Source of the DNA: Robiginitalea myxolifaciens
GTDB lineage: Bacteria; Bacteroidota; Bacteroidia; Flavobacteriales; Flavobacteriaceae
Reading direction: 5' to 3'
NCBI RefSeq assembly: GCF_900115205.1
Contig: NZ_FOYQ01000001.1
Coordinates: 1-64,000 of the forward strand
Length of the DNA stretch: 64,000 bases
The position numbers were made by a program, and so were the translations under genes. The notes beneath the pieces are model-generated. The model searched no databases. It was not told the DNA's origin and saw only the letters and a list, made by a program, of their open reading frames with translations. This document shows positions 56,062 to 62,306 of this stretch, one piece after another (position 1 is the stretch's first letter; every line of letters starts with the position of its first letter).

Positions 56062-57780
56062 ATGGAACAATTTCCGGAGATACTGCAGAACGCGAAATCA
56101 TGGTTAACTGATTTCTTTGACCCAGCTGTTAAACAGGAAATTCAAGAGCTAATTGAGAAGGATCCGGAATCCTTGCAAGACCGCTTTTACAAGAATCTCG
56201 AATTCGGGACTGGGGGCATGCGTGGGATCATGGGTACCGGAACAAACCGGATCAACAAATATACCCTGGGAAAAAGTACTCAGGGGCTGAGCAACTACCT
56301 GAAGCAGACCTACGGCCCGGATGGTCTCAAGGTGGTTATTGCCTATGATTGCCGCAATAACAGCCAATCCCTGGCAAGGGTTGTAGCAGAGGTTTTTTCG
56401 GCCAATGGAATCCAGGTATACTTATTCTCAGAGCTTCGCACTACTCCCGAACTGAGCTTCGCGGTTCGGTATTTGAATTGTCATGCCGGGGTGGTACTTA
56501 CCGCATCACACAATCCACCCGAATACAATGGATATAAGGTATACTGGACCGATGGCGGCCAGATCGTGCCTCCTCAGGATGGTGAAATCATTGCCGCTAT
56601 CGATAAATTGAGCTTTGAGGAAATCGCATTTGAGCCTCGAGAAGAGCTTATCCATATTATCGACAAGGAAGTCGACGAGCCGTTTATCAATGCTTCGGTT
56701 GCGAACGGGAGTATCGGAGCCCGGGGCAGGGATCAGTTTTCCATAGTGTTTACCCCGCTCCACGGCACCTCCATTACTGCTATTCCTGAAGTGCTCAAAA
56801 GGGCTGGGTATTCCCAGGTAACGATTATCGAAGAGCAGGCCGAACCCGATGGAAACTTTCCTACGGTAGTCTCTCCAAACCCTGAAGAACAGGAAGCCCT
56901 GGACCTTGCCATTAAAAAAGGAGAAGCGATTGGGGCAGATATGGTAGTAGGAACTGACCCCGATAGCGACAGGTTAGGTATTGCCGTGCGCAACGGAGAA
57001 GGTAAACTGGAAATTCTGAACGGAAACCAGACGATGATCCTCATGACTCGGTTTTTGCTGGATAAACGAAAAGCAACCGGATTTAAGGGGGATGAATTCG
57101 TGGCCTCTACCATCGTGTCTACTCCGATGATGTCCGTTATGGCGGCCGACTACGGCGTGGATTGCAAAACCTCCCTTACCGGATTCAAGTGGATCGCCAA
57201 AATGATCGAAGACTATCCTGATCAGGACTTTCTGGGGGGCGGAGAGGAGAGCTATGGTTTTATGGTCGGCGAGTTCGTGCGCGACAAGGACGCTGTTACC
57301 TCTACCCTGCTCGCCTGTGAAATTGCAGCCGAGGCCAAAGCAGCAGGAAGTAGTTTTTACCAGGAACTGCTCAAGTGTTACGTAGATTTTGGTTGTTACC
57401 GGGAACGTCTTGTTTCCCTGACCAAAAAAGGGATGGACGGGGCAAAAGAAATCCGGGAAATGATGGTGAAATTCCGGGAGAATCCGCCAGCCAGCCTAGA
57501 TGGTTCGCCCGTGGTCCGGGTTGAGGATTACAGCACTGCCGTGGCTACCGATCCCCGGGATGGTAGTTCCGAAGCCATTGACCTGCCCAAATCCAACGTG
57601 CTGATTTTTATTACTGAAGATGGGTCTCGCCTGGCAGCACGACCGAGCGGAACTGAACCCAAGATCAAATTCTATATAAGCGTCAATGCTCCTTTGGATT
57701 CTGTATCGGATTACGCTGGTGTTGCCGGTGGGCTCGATGCAAAAATCGACCGAATCCTGGCCGAACTTACTCTGGATTAA
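56062..57780 (+). CDS. phosphoglucomutase/phosphomannomutase family protein
   Basis: This 572-residue alpha-D-phosphohexomutase interconverts hexose 1- and 6-phosphates. It begins MEQFPEILQNAKSWLTDFFD, with GTGGMRGIMGTG (53-60 region), the phosphoserine loop VVLTASHNPPEYNGYK (Ser149), the Mg loop GTDPDSDRLG, the sugar loop GGGEESYGF, and the phosphate loop RPSGTEPK. Length is that of the larger Bacteroidota PGM form. The next gene, an ABC exporter, shares the last base of the stop codon (TAATG). Confidence 0.95.
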   Translation: MEQFPEILQNAKSWLTDFFDPAVKQEIQELIEKDPESLQDRFYKNLEFGTGGMRGIMGTGTNRINKYTLGKSTQGLSNYLKQTYGPDGLKVVIAYDCRNNSQSLARVVAEVFSANGIQVYLFSELRTTPELSFAVRYLNCHAGVVLTASHNPPEYNGYKVYWTDGGQIVPPQDGEIIAAIDKLSFEEIAFEPREELIHIIDKEVDEPFINASVANGSIGARGRDQFSIVFTPLHGTSITAIPEVLKRAGYSQVTIIEEQAEPDGNFPTVVSPNPEEQEALDLAIKKGEAIGADMVVGTDPDSDRLGIAVRNGEGKLEILNGNQTMILMTRFLLDKRKATGFKGDEFVASTIVSTPMMSVMAADYGVDCKTSLTGFKWIAKMIEDYPDQDFLGGGEESYGFMVGEFVRDKDAVTSTLLACEIAAEAKAAGSSFYQELLKCYVDFGCYRERLVSLTKKGMDGAKEIREMMVKFRENPPASLDGSPVVRVEDYSTAVATDPRDGSSEAIDLPKSNVLIFITEDGSRLAARPSGTEPKIKFYISVNAPLDSVSDYAGVAGGLDAKIDRILAELTLD

Positions 57781-59603
57781 TGCACTATTTTCGGAAAATC
57801 CTGCGCTTTGCAAAACCGTATCAGCGGTATGGGGCGCTGAATATCTTCTTTAATGTCCTCTATGCACTGTTTAGTGCCCTGTCCTTTGTGGCGCTTATCC
57901 CTATGCTGGAGGTGCTTTTTGAGCAGACCGAACCCATTACAGAAGCTCCGGTGTATACGGGGATAGGCGAGCTGGAGAGTTACATCAAGGATTCCCTCTA
58001 TTTTAAGATGGGGGCCGTGGCCGCAGACGACAAAATGCAAGCCCTCCTGTGGGTAATCGGGCTGGTGCTGGTACTTTTTCTCCTGAAAAACATCTTTAAT
58101 TACCTGGCCATGTATTTCATCACCTTCTTGCGCAATGGCGTGCTGAAGGATCTGAGAAATGCCCTTTACGATAAAATTGTTTCCCTCCCCATTTCCTTTT
58201 ACTCTGAGAAACGAAAAGGGGACGTTATTGCCCGGATTACCTCAGATGTCCTGGAAATACAACATTCCTTCCTCTCTATCCTGGAGTTAATAGTAAGGGA
58301 ACCCCTGACCATTTTGTTTACAATCGGAGCCATGTTCCTGATCAGCGTTAAACTGACCCTGTTCGTTTTCATATTCATTCCACTTGCCGGCTTCCTGATT
58401 TCTAGGATCGGTAAATCGTTGAAGCGAAAATCGGATCGGGTGCAAAAGGAACAGGGAGCTTTCCTGTCTATAGTGGAGGAAACACTGGGCGGTCTTAAGG
58501 TAATTAAAGCATTCAATGCCGAAAGTATCTTCAGTAAGGAATTTACCCATTCCACTTCGCGATTTTTCCGCTTTTCAAACAGCCTGCTCAATCGCCAGAA
58601 CCTGGCTTCCCCTGTCGGGGAATTTCTGGGTATCCTCGTCATCGGGGTTTTGCTTTGGTTTGGAGGTAAAATGGTACTGGAAGATGGCACCCTCGAAGCC
58701 TCTTCCTTTATAGCATATATGGGGTTGGCCTATAATATTCTCACTCCTGCCAAGGCAATATCCAAGGCCTCCTACGGCGTTAAGAAAGGGAATGCCGCTG
58801 CCGAACGGGTGCTGGAAGTCCTGGAAACGGAGAATACCATTGCAGATCCTGAAAACGGAGCAACCCCTGCCGAATTTCAAACCGAATTAAGCCTGAATAA
58901 TGTAAGCTTTGCCTATGAGGAGCAGGCAGTTCTCCGGAATTTTAACCTCAGCGTTAAGAAAGGGCAAACCGTTGCCCTGGTAGGTCAGTCCGGAAGTGGG
59001 AAAAGCACCATTGCCAATTTGGTAACCCGGTTTTACGATGTTAGCGATGGCAGTATTACCATTGATGGCACGGATATCCGAAATATCAGAAAACCAGCCC
59101 TGAGATCGCTTATGGGACTGGTCACGCAGGATTCCATCCTCTTTAATGATACCGTCCGGAACAACATATTATTGAGTAAGCCAGAAGCGTCGCAAGAAGA
59201 AGTAGAAGCAGCAGCGCGAATCGCTAACGCCCATGACTTTATCGCCGCTTTACCCGAGGTTTACGACACCAATATCGGAGATAGCGGGAACAAGCTCAGC
59301 GGTGGGCAGAAACAACGACTTTCCATTGCACGGGCTGTTCTGAAAAATCCACCGATTATGATCCTCGATGAGGCTACTTCTGCCCTGGACACTGAAAGTG
59401 AGCGCCTGGTACAACAAGCGCTGGAAAACATGATGAAGGGACGCACTTCGCTGGTAATAGCACATCGCTTGAGTACCATTCAGAATGCCGATCAGATCGT
59501 TGTCCTCGATCGAGGTGAAATTGTGGAATCGGGTAGCCATAAAGAACTCATGGCAGCGAAAGGGGCTTACTACAAGCTGGTTGGCCTTCAACAAATCGGT
59601 TAA
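57780..59603 (+). CDS. ABC exporter, ATP-binding and permease domains fused (MsbA-like)
   Basis: This 607-residue half-transporter has six membrane helices (about 20-310) and an ATP-binding domain: Walker A LVGQSGSGKST, signature LSGGQKQRLS, Walker B IMILDEATSALD and VIAHRLS. It dimerises. The plan is typical of MsbA-type lipid flippases, but the substrate could be another lipid or drug. Its ATG overlaps the mutase stop, so translation is coupled. Confidence 0.94.
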   Translation: MHYFRKILRFAKPYQRYGALNIFFNVLYALFSALSFVALIPMLEVLFEQTEPITEAPVYTGIGELESYIKDSLYFKMGAVAADDKMQALLWVIGLVLVLFLLKNIFNYLAMYFITFLRNGVLKDLRNALYDKIVSLPISFYSEKRKGDVIARITSDVLEIQHSFLSILELIVREPLTILFTIGAMFLISVKLTLFVFIFIPLAGFLISRIGKSLKRKSDRVQKEQGAFLSIVEETLGGLKVIKAFNAESIFSKEFTHSTSRFFRFSNSLLNRQNLASPVGEFLGILVIGVLLWFGGKMVLEDGTLEASSFIAYMGLAYNILTPAKAISKASYGVKKGNAAAERVLEVLETENTIADPENGATPAEFQTELSLNNVSFAYEEQAVLRNFNLSVKKGQTVALVGQSGSGKSTIANLVTRFYDVSDGSITIDGTDIRNIRKPALRSLMGLVTQDSILFNDTVRNNILLSKPEASQEEVEAAARIANAHDFIAALPEVYDTNIGDSGNKLSGGQKQRLSIARAVLKNPPIMILDEATSALDTESERLVQQALENMMKGRTSLVIAHRLSTIQNADQIVVLDRGEIVESGSHKELMAAKGAYYKLVGLQQIG

Positions 59604-59630
59604 TTTGATCCGGCCGCAAGGTCCCGGATT

Positions 59631-59655
59631 AAACCTTGTGTGTATTCTGAAGTCT
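59631..59655 (+). promoter_or_regulatory. candidate ECF promoter, copy 1 (upstream of sigma gene)
   Basis: AAACC (59631-59635), a 16-base spacer and GTCT (59652-59655), preceded by GGATT so that GGATTAAACCTT is shared with copy 2. It lies 15 bases before the sigma-factor ATG. Confidence 0.6.
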
Positions 59656-59670
59656 TAAGTACAGATCCTA

Positions 59671-60219
59671 ATGGGAACGGAGACCGAATTCATAGCACGG
59701 CTTCAAAGCGATTCTACGCGAGAATTGGCTTTTAAGGAACTGGTAGCAACCTATCAGGAGCGCCTGTATTGGCATGTGCGAAGAATTGTCCTGGTCCATG
59801 CCGATGCAGACGACGTCCTCCAGAATACCTTTATTAAAATATACCGGAACATCGGTAAATTCAATGAACAGAGTAAACTGTATTCCTGGATGTACCGAAT
59901 AGCTACGAATGAAGCCCTGAGTTTTTTGAAAACTGAAACCAGGATGCGCAAACTAAAGGATGAGGAGCAGCAATCCTATCTGGCTGGAAAATTGGCCGCT
60001 GACCCTTATTTTGATGGGGATCAGGCACAATTATTATTACAACAGGCTATTGCTGGACTTCCCGAAAAACAGCGGTTGGTTTTTAACATGAAGTATTACC
60101 AGCAGCTCAAATACAAGGATATGGCAGATATCCTGGAGACCTCGGAAGGAGCTCTGAAGGCTTCCTACCATTTGGCAAGTAAAAAGATTGAAGAGTATAT
60201 TAAAGGCGTAAATGCTTAA
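59671..60219 (+). CDS. ECF-type RNA polymerase sigma factor
   Basis: This 182-residue sigma factor has region 2 (RRIVLVHADADDVLQNTFIKIYRNIGKFNEQSKLYSWMYRIATNEALSFL) and region 4 (LPEKQRLVFNMKYYQQLKYKDMADILETSEGALKASYHLASKKIEEYIK). It starts at ATG 59671 (MGTETEFIARLQ). It is followed by a membrane protein and a Spy-like exported protein. A duplicated promoter element lies before it and before the next gene. Confidence 0.94.
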   Translation: MGTETEFIARLQSDSTRELAFKELVATYQERLYWHVRRIVLVHADADDVLQNTFIKIYRNIGKFNEQSKLYSWMYRIATNEALSFLKTETRMRKLKDEEQQSYLAGKLAADPYFDGDQAQLLLQQAIAGLPEKQRLVFNMKYYQQLKYKDMADILETSEGALKASYHLASKKIEEYIKGVNA

Positions 60220-60237
60220 AAATCACAGCTTGGGATT

Positions 60238-60262
60238 AAACCTTTTGTGCGGGCAGACGTCT
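60238..60262 (+). promoter_or_regulatory. candidate ECF promoter, copy 2 (inside the operon)
   Basis: AAACC (60238-60242), a 16-base spacer and GTCT (60259-60262), preceded by GGATT. It has the same boxes and spacing as copy 1 and lies 31 bases before the ATG at 60293, so the two downstream genes probably have their own sigma-dependent start. Confidence 0.6.
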
Positions 60263-60292
60263 AAAGATAAAAGACCTAACGTAATTTAATAA

Positions 60293-60787
60293 ATGAAGCA
60301 ACATTCCAGGGACGGATTTAAGACACCTGATAAGTATTTCGAAAACTTTCAGGAACAACTCGGAAAGCGCCTTAACGCTGAGGATTCCGACGGTTTTTCC
60401 GTGCCTGAAGGCTTTTTCGAAAGTTTCGGGGAGAAACTGGAGCAGCGACTCACAGAAAGTCCTGGAAAGGTTCGAAAGCTAAGGCCGCAATTGCTGGCCT
60501 GGAGTGGTGCTGTTGCTGCAGCCATTATCCTTTTTGTGGTTTTACAGCCCGGCTCGAATTACGCATCCCCTACCTTCTCGGATCTCGCAGATGCGGAAAT
60601 CGAGAATTATCTGGAAGTGGGCTATGAGGATTTGAGCGCCTATGAATGGGCAGAAAATTTCCCGCCGGAAAGTTTAAGCGCGGAAGATTTGATCGAGGTC
60701 GAGCCTGCAGAGGAGCAGTTATTGGATTATCTGGATCAGGATCCGGATGCCCTGGAAGAATTATTTAAGGACACGGACAATGAGTAA
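60293..60787 (+). CDS. single-span membrane protein, probable anti-sigma-type regulator
   Basis: This 164-residue protein has a soluble N-terminus with two similar short segments (DKYFENFQEQLGKRL and EGFFESFGEKLEQRL), one membrane helix (LLAWSGAVAAAIILFVVL, about 64-82), and an acidic extracytoplasmic tail. Bacteroidota genes placed after ECF sigma genes often look like this. I infer that it binds or senses for the sigma factor; there is no classic zinc anti-sigma motif. Its stop overlaps the next ATG by 8 bases. Confidence 0.72.
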   Translation: MKQHSRDGFKTPDKYFENFQEQLGKRLNAEDSDGFSVPEGFFESFGEKLEQRLTESPGKVRKLRPQLLAWSGAVAAAIILFVVLQPGSNYASPTFSDLADAEIENYLEVGYEDLSAYEWAENFPPESLSAEDLIEVEPAEEQLLDYLDQDPDALEELFKDTDNE

Positions 60788-61235
60788 GCAACTTATTACT
60801 GTTATAACGATACTATTTTGTGCCTTTGGTTCAATACAGGCACAACAATCCAGCGAAAAGATTAAAGCGCTGAAGATTGCCTTTTTCACAGAGCGAATCG
60901 GTCTGAGTTCCGAGGAAGCCGAAATCTTCTGGCCCCTCTATAACGATTATCAAGAGCGTCGCCAGCAGCTCATGCAGCAGGAAAAACGCGACGTAAGGGA
61001 TAAGATCGGTGCAGGAGGATACTCAGAATCCCAGGCCAATACCATACTGAAACGGTACCTAGAACTGGAGGAACAGCAGGAGGAACTGGACAAGACTTTT
61101 TATCAGACCCTGAGCGAACGGATGTCGGCAACCAAGGTGCTCAAACTCTTCCAGGCCGAGCATGAATTCCGCAGGCGAATGCTACGAGAGTATCGCAACC
61201 GACGTGGACAAAACGGCGGACATCCTATTCCTTAG
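60780..61235 (+). CDS. Spy-like exported protein, possible ECF-system sensor
   Basis: I start at the ATG at 60780, where a signal peptide begins (MSKQLITVITILFCAFGSIQAQ). The 151-residue mature protein is helical and charged, with FFTERIGLSSEEAEIFWPLYNDYQERRQ and a paired helix around 95-130, resembling Spy/CpxP periplasmic chaperone-type proteins. Bacteroidota genes in this position are often named sensor of ECF-type sigma factor. It overlaps the preceding gene by 8 bases. Confidence 0.8.
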   Translation: MSKQLITVITILFCAFGSIQAQQSSEKIKALKIAFFTERIGLSSEEAEIFWPLYNDYQERRQQLMQQEKRDVRDKIGAGGYSESQANTILKRYLELEEQQEELDKTFYQTLSERMSATKVLKLFQAEHEFRRRMLREYRNRRGQNGGHPIP

Positions 61236-61241
61236 TCATAA

Positions 61242-62306
61242 TTATTTACGGAATACAAGCCGGGAAACCCTGCCGCGACCTGACGCGTAGGCTATGGAGT
61301 CATTAATAAATCGGATGCTGTAATAGGAGCTCTCCGATAGGGCCTTCCAGTTAAGACCCCCATCTCCAGAATAGCTTATCCCTGTAAATCCCACAGCTAC
61401 CAAATCCGATCCCCCGGCCCCCGGAATATACTGGACACAACTCTTGTATCCGGGCGCATTGCCATCGGCTACGACTTCCCAGGTCTTACCACTATCAGAA
61501 GTTCGCATCTTGTTGTTGGTATTTCCTTCGGGTTGTGTATAATCACCGCCAATGGCATATCCGTATTTCCCTTCGTAAAAATCCATGCTATAAAGTCCCT
61601 GAGTGGCCACTTCAGGAGCAATAGGGCTTTGGAGAACCGACCAGTTCTGGCCGCGATCCGGGCTATAGAGAATTCGGCCTTTTGTGGTAATTATCCAGGC
61701 TTCGTCCTCCCAGATCTCGATATTGGTGTCACTTGCCGCGAAGGCCCCTTCGCCTGGCAAGGCCACGGGTAGCGCTGTGCAAGGAATTTTCCCCCAGCTA
61801 GTTCCGCCATCTGTGGTTCGCAGTAGCGTCAGACAGTCTCCCTGTGCGTCCCCGAAAGCAATCCCCTCTTTGTCGTTCCAAAAGGCCAGGGCGTCGTAAA
61901 ATACTTCCGGGCCCGATTCTGAGTAGACCAACTCCATATTGCCGGAATTTCCAGTTTTGTACAACAGGGCCGGATCGCCCGCCGACAACATGAAAAAGTC
62001 AGATGCTGTATGGGCAAGGGCGCGAAATTCAGGGTACAAGCTATCCTGTTGTTGCCTACCGACACGTACCTGGCCATCCGCGAGTGAAATGGTTCCAAAA
62101 GTTCCTGCACTTCCTGCAAAGGCTACAGCCCCCGGCATAATTTCTAATGCCCTCACCGAAACGGAGTCTTCCCATAAAACGGTTTCAGCCACCTGGGTAT
62201 AGGCATGACTTTCCTGCTCCTGGCCACAGCTAAACAGGCTAATGGCCACCACCATTGTCAGGATTGGAAGGGTTACTATATCGCTGTTCTTACGTTTTTG
62301 CATCAT
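61242..62306 (-). CDS. Ycf48/Hcf136-like beta-propeller lipoprotein
   Basis: This 354-residue lipoprotein has a leader ending AISLFSC (Cys27) and repeated sialidase/BNR-like blades: LLRTTDGGTSWGKI, LYSPDRGQNWSVL, MRTSDSGKTWEVV, SYSGDGGLNWKAL. Such Asp-box propellers resemble the Ycf48 assembly factor. The role here is unknown. Often labelled oxidoreductase in flavobacteria, without evidence visible in this sequence. It converges on the second ECF operon with a 6-base gap. Confidence 0.88.
   Translation of the reverse strand: MMQKRKNSDIVTLPILTMVVAISLFSCGQEQESHAYTQVAETVLWEDSVSVRALEIMPGAVAFAGSAGTFGTISLADGQVRVGRQQQDSLYPEFRALAHTASDFFMLSAGDPALLYKTGNSGNMELVYSESGPEVFYDALAFWNDKEGIAFGDAQGDCLTLLRTTDGGTSWGKIPCTALPVALPGEGAFAASDTNIEIWEDEAWIITTKGRILYSPDRGQNWSVLQSPIAPEVATQGLYSMDFYEGKYGYAIGGDYTQPEGNTNNKMRTSDSGKTWEVVADGNAPGYKSCVQYIPGAGGSDLVAVGFTGISYSGDGGLNWKALSESSYYSIRFINDSIAYASGRGRVSRLVFRK

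Follow-up and report, generated by a model that had tools for sequence, protein, structure and literature searches.

Our results support a model in which two copies of a conserved two-box element, one upstream of an ECF sigma factor gene and one between that gene and the next, are promoters read by the sigma factor encoded between them. The first (P1) would drive the whole operon and the second (P2) only genes 2 and 3, with gene 2 acting as a brake and gene 3 as a sensor in a bounded envelope response. We assign this reading as a whole a probability of roughly 0.78. Taken by itself, the view that the two elements are ECF promoters is very probably correct, judging from their sequence and distribution.

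Two copies of the element flank the sigma factor gene

The window, by which we mean the whole 64,000-nt stretch of Robiginitalea myxolifaciens DNA that was analyzed, contains the following features at and around the locus.

57780-59603: MsbA-like ABC transporter gene, ending upstream of site 1
59626-59637, plus strand: putative P1 -35 element GGATTAAACCTT, with the AAACC core at 59631-59635
59652-59657, plus strand: putative P1 -10 element GTCTTA, exactly 16 nt past AAACC
59671-60219, plus strand: ECF sigma factor gene, 182 aa, with Sigma70_r2 and Sigma70_r4_2
60233-60244, plus strand: putative P2 -35 element GGATTAAACCTT, with the AAACC core at 60238-60242
60259-60264, plus strand: putative P2 -10 element GTCTAA, exactly 16 nt past AAACC
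60293-60787, plus strand: gene 2, probable single-pass membrane anti-sigma factor, 164 aa (judged by its position, its topology and its likeness to cirYZ-spy)
60780-61235, plus strand: gene 3, Spy/CnrX-like periplasmic protein, 151 aa (from alignment, AF2 and Foldseek)
61242-62306, minus strand: convergent gene downstream of gene 3

An earlier note on this DNA had described the same element before the sigma gene and again between it and the next gene, with AAACC followed after 16 bases by GTCT in both copies, and the exact positions agree with that description. In the window, GGATTAAACCTT occurs exactly twice (59626-59637 and 60233-60244), as does AAACC-N16-GTCT (59631-59655 and 60238-60262). 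Site 1 lies within the 67-nt gap between the end of the ABC transporter gene (59603) and the sigma ORF (59671), site 2 lies within the 73 nt that separate the sigma stop (60219) from the next ORF (60293), and an ungapped alignment of the two sites over 34 nt shows 76% identity. The DNA that follows the boxes, TTAAGTACAG at site 1 and AAAGATAAAAGA at site 2, is A-rich, as the note had put it, in a loose sense.

The bare pattern was rejected as genome-wide evidence. The note had called for a genome-wide search, and in the 3.2-Mb own genome AAACC-N16-GTCT gives 18 matches compared with 38 for a reversed-pattern control, so that the pattern is not special there. With up to three mismatches allowed, the own genome yielded 41 matches against 95 in the control, a signal swamped by chance, and we therefore weighed only own-genome matches with at most two mismatches. 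Thus, the two-box pattern alone is no proof, and what makes the sites significant is the longer stretch that they share and their conservation in relatives.

Both sites are conserved among relatives

We compared 121 Flavobacteriaceae genomes, one per genus. An ortholog of the sigma factor (E <= 1e-25) is found in 108 of the 121 genera, or about 90% of those sampled, nearly always in single copy, and we examined the DNA around 106 sigma matches, a few of which are second, weaker copies. Of these 106 loci, 82 carry the core AAAC[CT][TA]T-N14-GTC[TA] ahead of sigma and 83 carry it at the junction of sigma and gene 2, whereas shuffled regions, which preserve letter composition only, gave means of 0.06 and 0.03, respectively. 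Any other box spacing from 8 to 23 was found in 0 or 1 of the 106 loci. When the same loci were scored with a leave-one-out weight matrix, using a stretch of coding DNA as the control, the upstream site was recovered in 96, the junction site in 90, both in 80 and the control in none, and the spacing was 16 at all 96 scored P1 sites and at 89 of the 90 scored P2 sites. The 10 loci without a scored upstream site and the 16 without a junction site count against our preferred explanation.

A second set of 73 named loci, which remained after seven overlapping the first set were dropped, gave similar counts (upstream, 66; junction, 69; both, 62; control, 1). These loci cover Robiginitalea, Polaribacter, Tenacibaculum, Cellulophaga and Muriicola and, outside the Flavobacteriaceae, Mariniphaga, Maribellus and Draconibacterium; the same boxes were often seen at loci of other families and orders within the phylum. 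The earlier note had held that its reading would fall if the boxes were not conserved in relatives, and with 82 and 83 of 106 loci carrying them it is not refuted on this count.

One alternative is that a different DNA-binding regulator uses the repeat as its operator, or that the likeness is simply due to chance, which would fit both the absence of enrichment of the bare pattern in the own genome and the chance-level frequency of GGATTAAACCTT in the window when two mismatches are allowed. We regard this as highly improbable, because spacing and placement are invariant across about 100 genera, no inverted symmetry is visible in the shared element and the motif lies shortly before the start codon in most distant target genes. 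Chance similarity in particular is refuted by the locus counts set against their shuffled means.

An ECF-type promoter has two boxes that are conserved and held about 16 nt apart, placed ahead of the sigma gene and of its targets, and the sites found here share this layout. The elements also behave as the note's proposal of ECF-type two-box promoters would predict, with an invariant 16-nt spacer, conservation at both positions and co-occurrence with sigma. Since the same pair recurs at the same spacing around the sigma gene in most of the family, the sigma factor very likely activates its own gene and, separately, the putative brake and sensor.

The motif is associated with this sigma factor

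The sigma factor, at about 180 aa and with regions 2 and 4 only, has the architecture of the ECF class. Its Pfam scores, 54.8 bits for Sigma70_r2 and 49.8 bits for Sigma70_r4_2, are both above the cut-off, and its sequence matches solved ECF sigma factors, including RpoE. Its score against the NCBIfam GFO_1088 / PG0214 ECF sigma equivalog, 83.2 bits, falls below the curated cut-off of 130 bits.

A strict form of the motif, TTAAACCTTT-N13-GTCTWA, occurs in 33 of 109 genomes across the phylum that carry a sigma ortholog (here E <= 1e-30), compared with 6 of 188 that do not. Within the family, a relaxed form is found in 101 of 108 genomes with the ortholog and 3 of 13 without. These co-occurrence counts are confounded by phylogeny, and the sites flanking the gene on both sides are the stronger argument.

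The same data bear on a second alternative, in which the sites, while being ECF promoters, are used mainly by a different ECF sigma factor or by several with overlapping specificity. The genomes contain many ECF candidates, according to first-look counts, and overlapping ECF regulons in flavobacteria are suggested by a published study (PMC9723704). Moreover, two genomes, G016 and G059, carry motif sites and have no close sigma ortholog; those of G016 include one before a sulfatase-like gene and one before a lipoprotein-like gene. However, both are draft assemblies, 91% and 80% complete, respectively, and among the four genomes without a close ortholog that are at least 95% complete, the relaxed motif has no match in three and a single match in one. 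The sites also flank specifically this sigma gene in more than 100 loci, and we therefore consider it unlikely that another sigma factor is the main reader. In a further genome, G090, a 40-residue C-terminal sigma fragment lies at a contig edge (G090:C246:3-122), so the apparent absence of its ortholog probably reflects an assembly gap.

Genes 2 and 3 as a candidate anti-sigma factor and periplasmic sensor

In alignment, gene 2 shows no signal peptide and consists of about 64 residues followed by one transmembrane helix and then a periplasmic part. The alignment and a weak AF2 model (pTM 0.23) indicate two G-F-x-x-P-x-x-Y-F repeats (P-x-x-[YF]-F units), each followed by a helix, and the position of the gene after sigma is fixed among relatives. 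No Pfam anti-sigma family matched gene 2 in 31 relatives or in six distant ones, and sequence searches of Pfam, NCBIfam and PDB gave no confident family for either gene 2 or gene 3. These missing family matches and the weakness of the model count against our preferred explanation. From its place, its topology and the analogy with cirYZ-spy, we nevertheless take gene 2 to be, most likely, an anti-sigma factor that crosses the membrane once. The number of units varies at a distance: a relative from another family (L245) has about six P-x-x-Y-F units, and four very distant relatives (L261-L264) combine one unit with a longer helical N-terminus that resembles a class I anti-sigma (ASDI) domain, by eye only.

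Gene 3 encodes a helical periplasmic protein with the alignment signature E-K-I-K-A-L-K...F-W-P-x-Y-N. Its AF2 model (pLDDT 91) has CnrX, NccX and a Spy/VirG-like protein as Foldseek neighbors in the PDB, all with weak E-values; for the CnrX fold, the probability reaches 0.93 and the TM-score to the target is 0.58-0.66, at E of 0.5 or worse. No histidine is conserved among 31 relatives of gene 3, so that metal sensing of the CnrX type is unsupported. The order of sigma factor, single-pass membrane protein and Spy-like periplasmic protein is that of a cirYZ-spy-type cassette. The first 8 nt of gene 3 (60780-60787) overlap gene 2, which suggests translational coupling.

CnrYXH of Cupriavidus metallidurans likewise combines an ECF sigma factor, a short membrane anti-sigma factor and a helical periplasmic sensor, and CnrX is among the fold neighbors of the gene 3 model, although the match is weak. 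It differs in gene order and in that gene 3 has no conserved histidine. In Escherichia coli, the ECF sigma factor RpoE is encoded in an operon with the membrane anti-sigma factor RseA and counts periplasmic folding factors among its targets. Our locus shares the pairing of an ECF sigma factor, one that matches solved RpoE, with a (here predicted) membrane anti-sigma factor in an operon, but gene 2 matches no RseA-type family and gene 3 is Spy/CnrX-like and not RseB.

The closest described system, likened here by gene order and description, is cirY-cirZ-spy of Phocaeicola vulgatus. It has the same order of sigma factor, anti-sigma factor and Spy-like periplasmic protein, its sigma factor raises its own operon, and its theme is envelope stress, with colitis as the inducer (PMC13114119). 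The passages of that report considered here describe no second promoter or promoter motif (PMC13114119).

These comparisons bear on the sign of the P2 arm. The earlier note had proposed a two-step positive loop, of which the P1 step, positive autoregulation, fits our data. The P2 step is probably wrong in sign, given the anti-sigma features of gene 2 and the finding in P. vulgatus that deletion of the anti-sigma gene raises sigma and spy (PMC13114119). A double positive loop would require that both sites are sigma-dependent and that genes 2 and 3 act positively, for instance as a sigma-activating receptor. The conservation of sites at both positions agrees with it, as does the fact that gene 2 matches no anti-sigma family, its inhibition of sigma being a prediction. 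On the other hand, gene 2 has the topology and the position of a membrane anti-sigma factor, and the corresponding P. vulgatus gene encodes an anti-sigma factor by deletion, so we give the double positive loop a low probability. As P2 would drive a probable anti-sigma factor and its periplasmic partner, it is more likely a negative, homeostatic arm.

Our results are thus consistent with a circuit in which gene 2 would hold sigma through its tandem cytoplasmic helices while gene 3 reports the state of the envelope from the periplasm. Disturbance of the envelope, the presumed signal, would free sigma from gene 2, and free sigma would act at P1 on the operon for sigma, anti-sigma and periplasmic partner, giving positive autoregulation, and at the same motif elsewhere on an envelope-maintenance regulon. 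Extra gene 2 and gene 3 product from P2 would keep the response bounded and then shut it off. Positive autoregulation coupled to a dedicated brake promoter would be expected to give fast onset with bounded output, and the conserved two-promoter layout could keep amplification and braking apart. Although many ECF sigma operons are autoregulated, the ECF promoters and anti-sigma factors of Bacteroidota are poorly known. A class I anti-sigma factor is found nearby for only 6% of ECF sigma factors in the phylum (PMC7406223).

Consensus and placement of the two sites

A motif refined from 170 sites reads ATTAAAC[CT][TA]TT, N13, GTC[TA][AT]A, with a 16-nt gap from AAACC to GTC. It amounts to a clear-cut consensus, approximately TTAAACYWTT-N13-GTCWWA, for the promoters of a sigma factor present in about 90% of the sampled Flavobacteriaceae genera. 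AAACT and AAACC are about equally frequent at P1, whereas AAACC is found in 77 of 89 P2 sites, and GTCA is commoner at P2 than at P1; such differences may tune promoter strength.

Two features of placement are new beyond the earlier note. First, the TAA stop codon of sigma lies inside the P2 -35 box (..AT TAA ACC..) in 72 of 89 loci. The box thereby dictates that the final sense codon ends in AT, and in these loci that codon is nearly always AAT, GAT or CAT. The window is an exception, with P2 18 nt past the sigma stop. Second, P2 lies close to gene 2: its 4-nt -10 core ends 7-13 nt before the start codon in 75 of 87 loci, compared with a median of 19 nt at P1. Here, too, the window is an exception, at 30 nt. 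ECF transcripts usually begin a few nt beyond the -10 box, and at so short a distance many P2 transcripts would have little or no leader. The sequences therefore suggest that the anti-sigma mRNA from P2 is leaderless or near-leaderless in many loci. In Flavobacterium psychrophilum, leaderless mRNAs make up 5.5%, according to the start-site study (PMC9723704).

It is tempting to join these features into one reading, which we hold only tentatively and at somewhat less than even odds. A nearly universal Flavobacteriaceae envelope-stress sigma factor would have a further conserved promoter, also dependent on sigma, in which the -35 box holds the sigma stop and from which transcripts start at the anti-sigma ATG or shortly ahead of it. 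Besides the operon mRNA, a near-leaderless, sigma-dependent mRNA would then supply the brake, as hard-wired positive-plus-negative feedback, and the brake would be an undescribed kind of anti-sigma factor built of tandem P-x-x-Y-F helix units.

Our searches of the open-licence literature brought up no earlier account of this motif. The SM6 promoters of F. psychrophilum belong to the ECF-type class and to the same family of bacteria, and SM6 itself drives a sigma/anti-sigma pair (PMC9723704). They differ in having a CGT -10 box and type IX secretion targets (PMC9723704), whereas here the boxes are AAAC[CT] at -35 and GTC[TA] at -10 and the targets are envelope lipoproteins and Spy-like proteins. 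As far as the study was available, the start-site map of F. psychrophilum holds a single ECF motif, that with the CGT box, and not the AAAC/GTC motif (PMC9723704), which counts against our preferred explanation.

A predicted envelope regulon

The strict motif has 127 matches in the 121 family genomes, compared with 3 for its reversed control, and among 75 sites inspected outside the sigma locus, 55 lie before proteins that group by sequence into clusters of at least two. The distant target groups are Spy-like DUF4890 proteins (12), serine hydrolases of the beta-lactamase family (9), DUF6515-like small lipoproteins (8), a 280-aa lipoprotein without a family (8), outer-membrane beta-barrels (5) and DUF1800 proteins (3). 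Paired targets include GLPGLI (Porph_ging), EF-hand, di-haem peroxidase and sulfatase-like proteins; Pfam names are those of one member per group, and the sulfatase label was given by eye. The same motif thus predicts a small, testable envelope-maintenance regulon.

The own genome has only four further sites with at most two mismatches, three of which precede genes of recurrent target families: a GLPGLI-like gene 107 nt away and an RND-adaptor-like gene 23 nt away, both named by eye, and a Spy-like gene 28 nt away. At C2:1161445, 46 nt ahead of a response-regulator gene, there is a site with two mismatches; none of the other targets is of this kind. Upstream of the own-genome gene for the 280-aa lipoprotein (C3:494895-495710, minus strand), there is a copy of GGATTAAACCTT (GGGATTAAACCTTTT) with a spacing of 17 and a poorer -10 box, ATCCTA.
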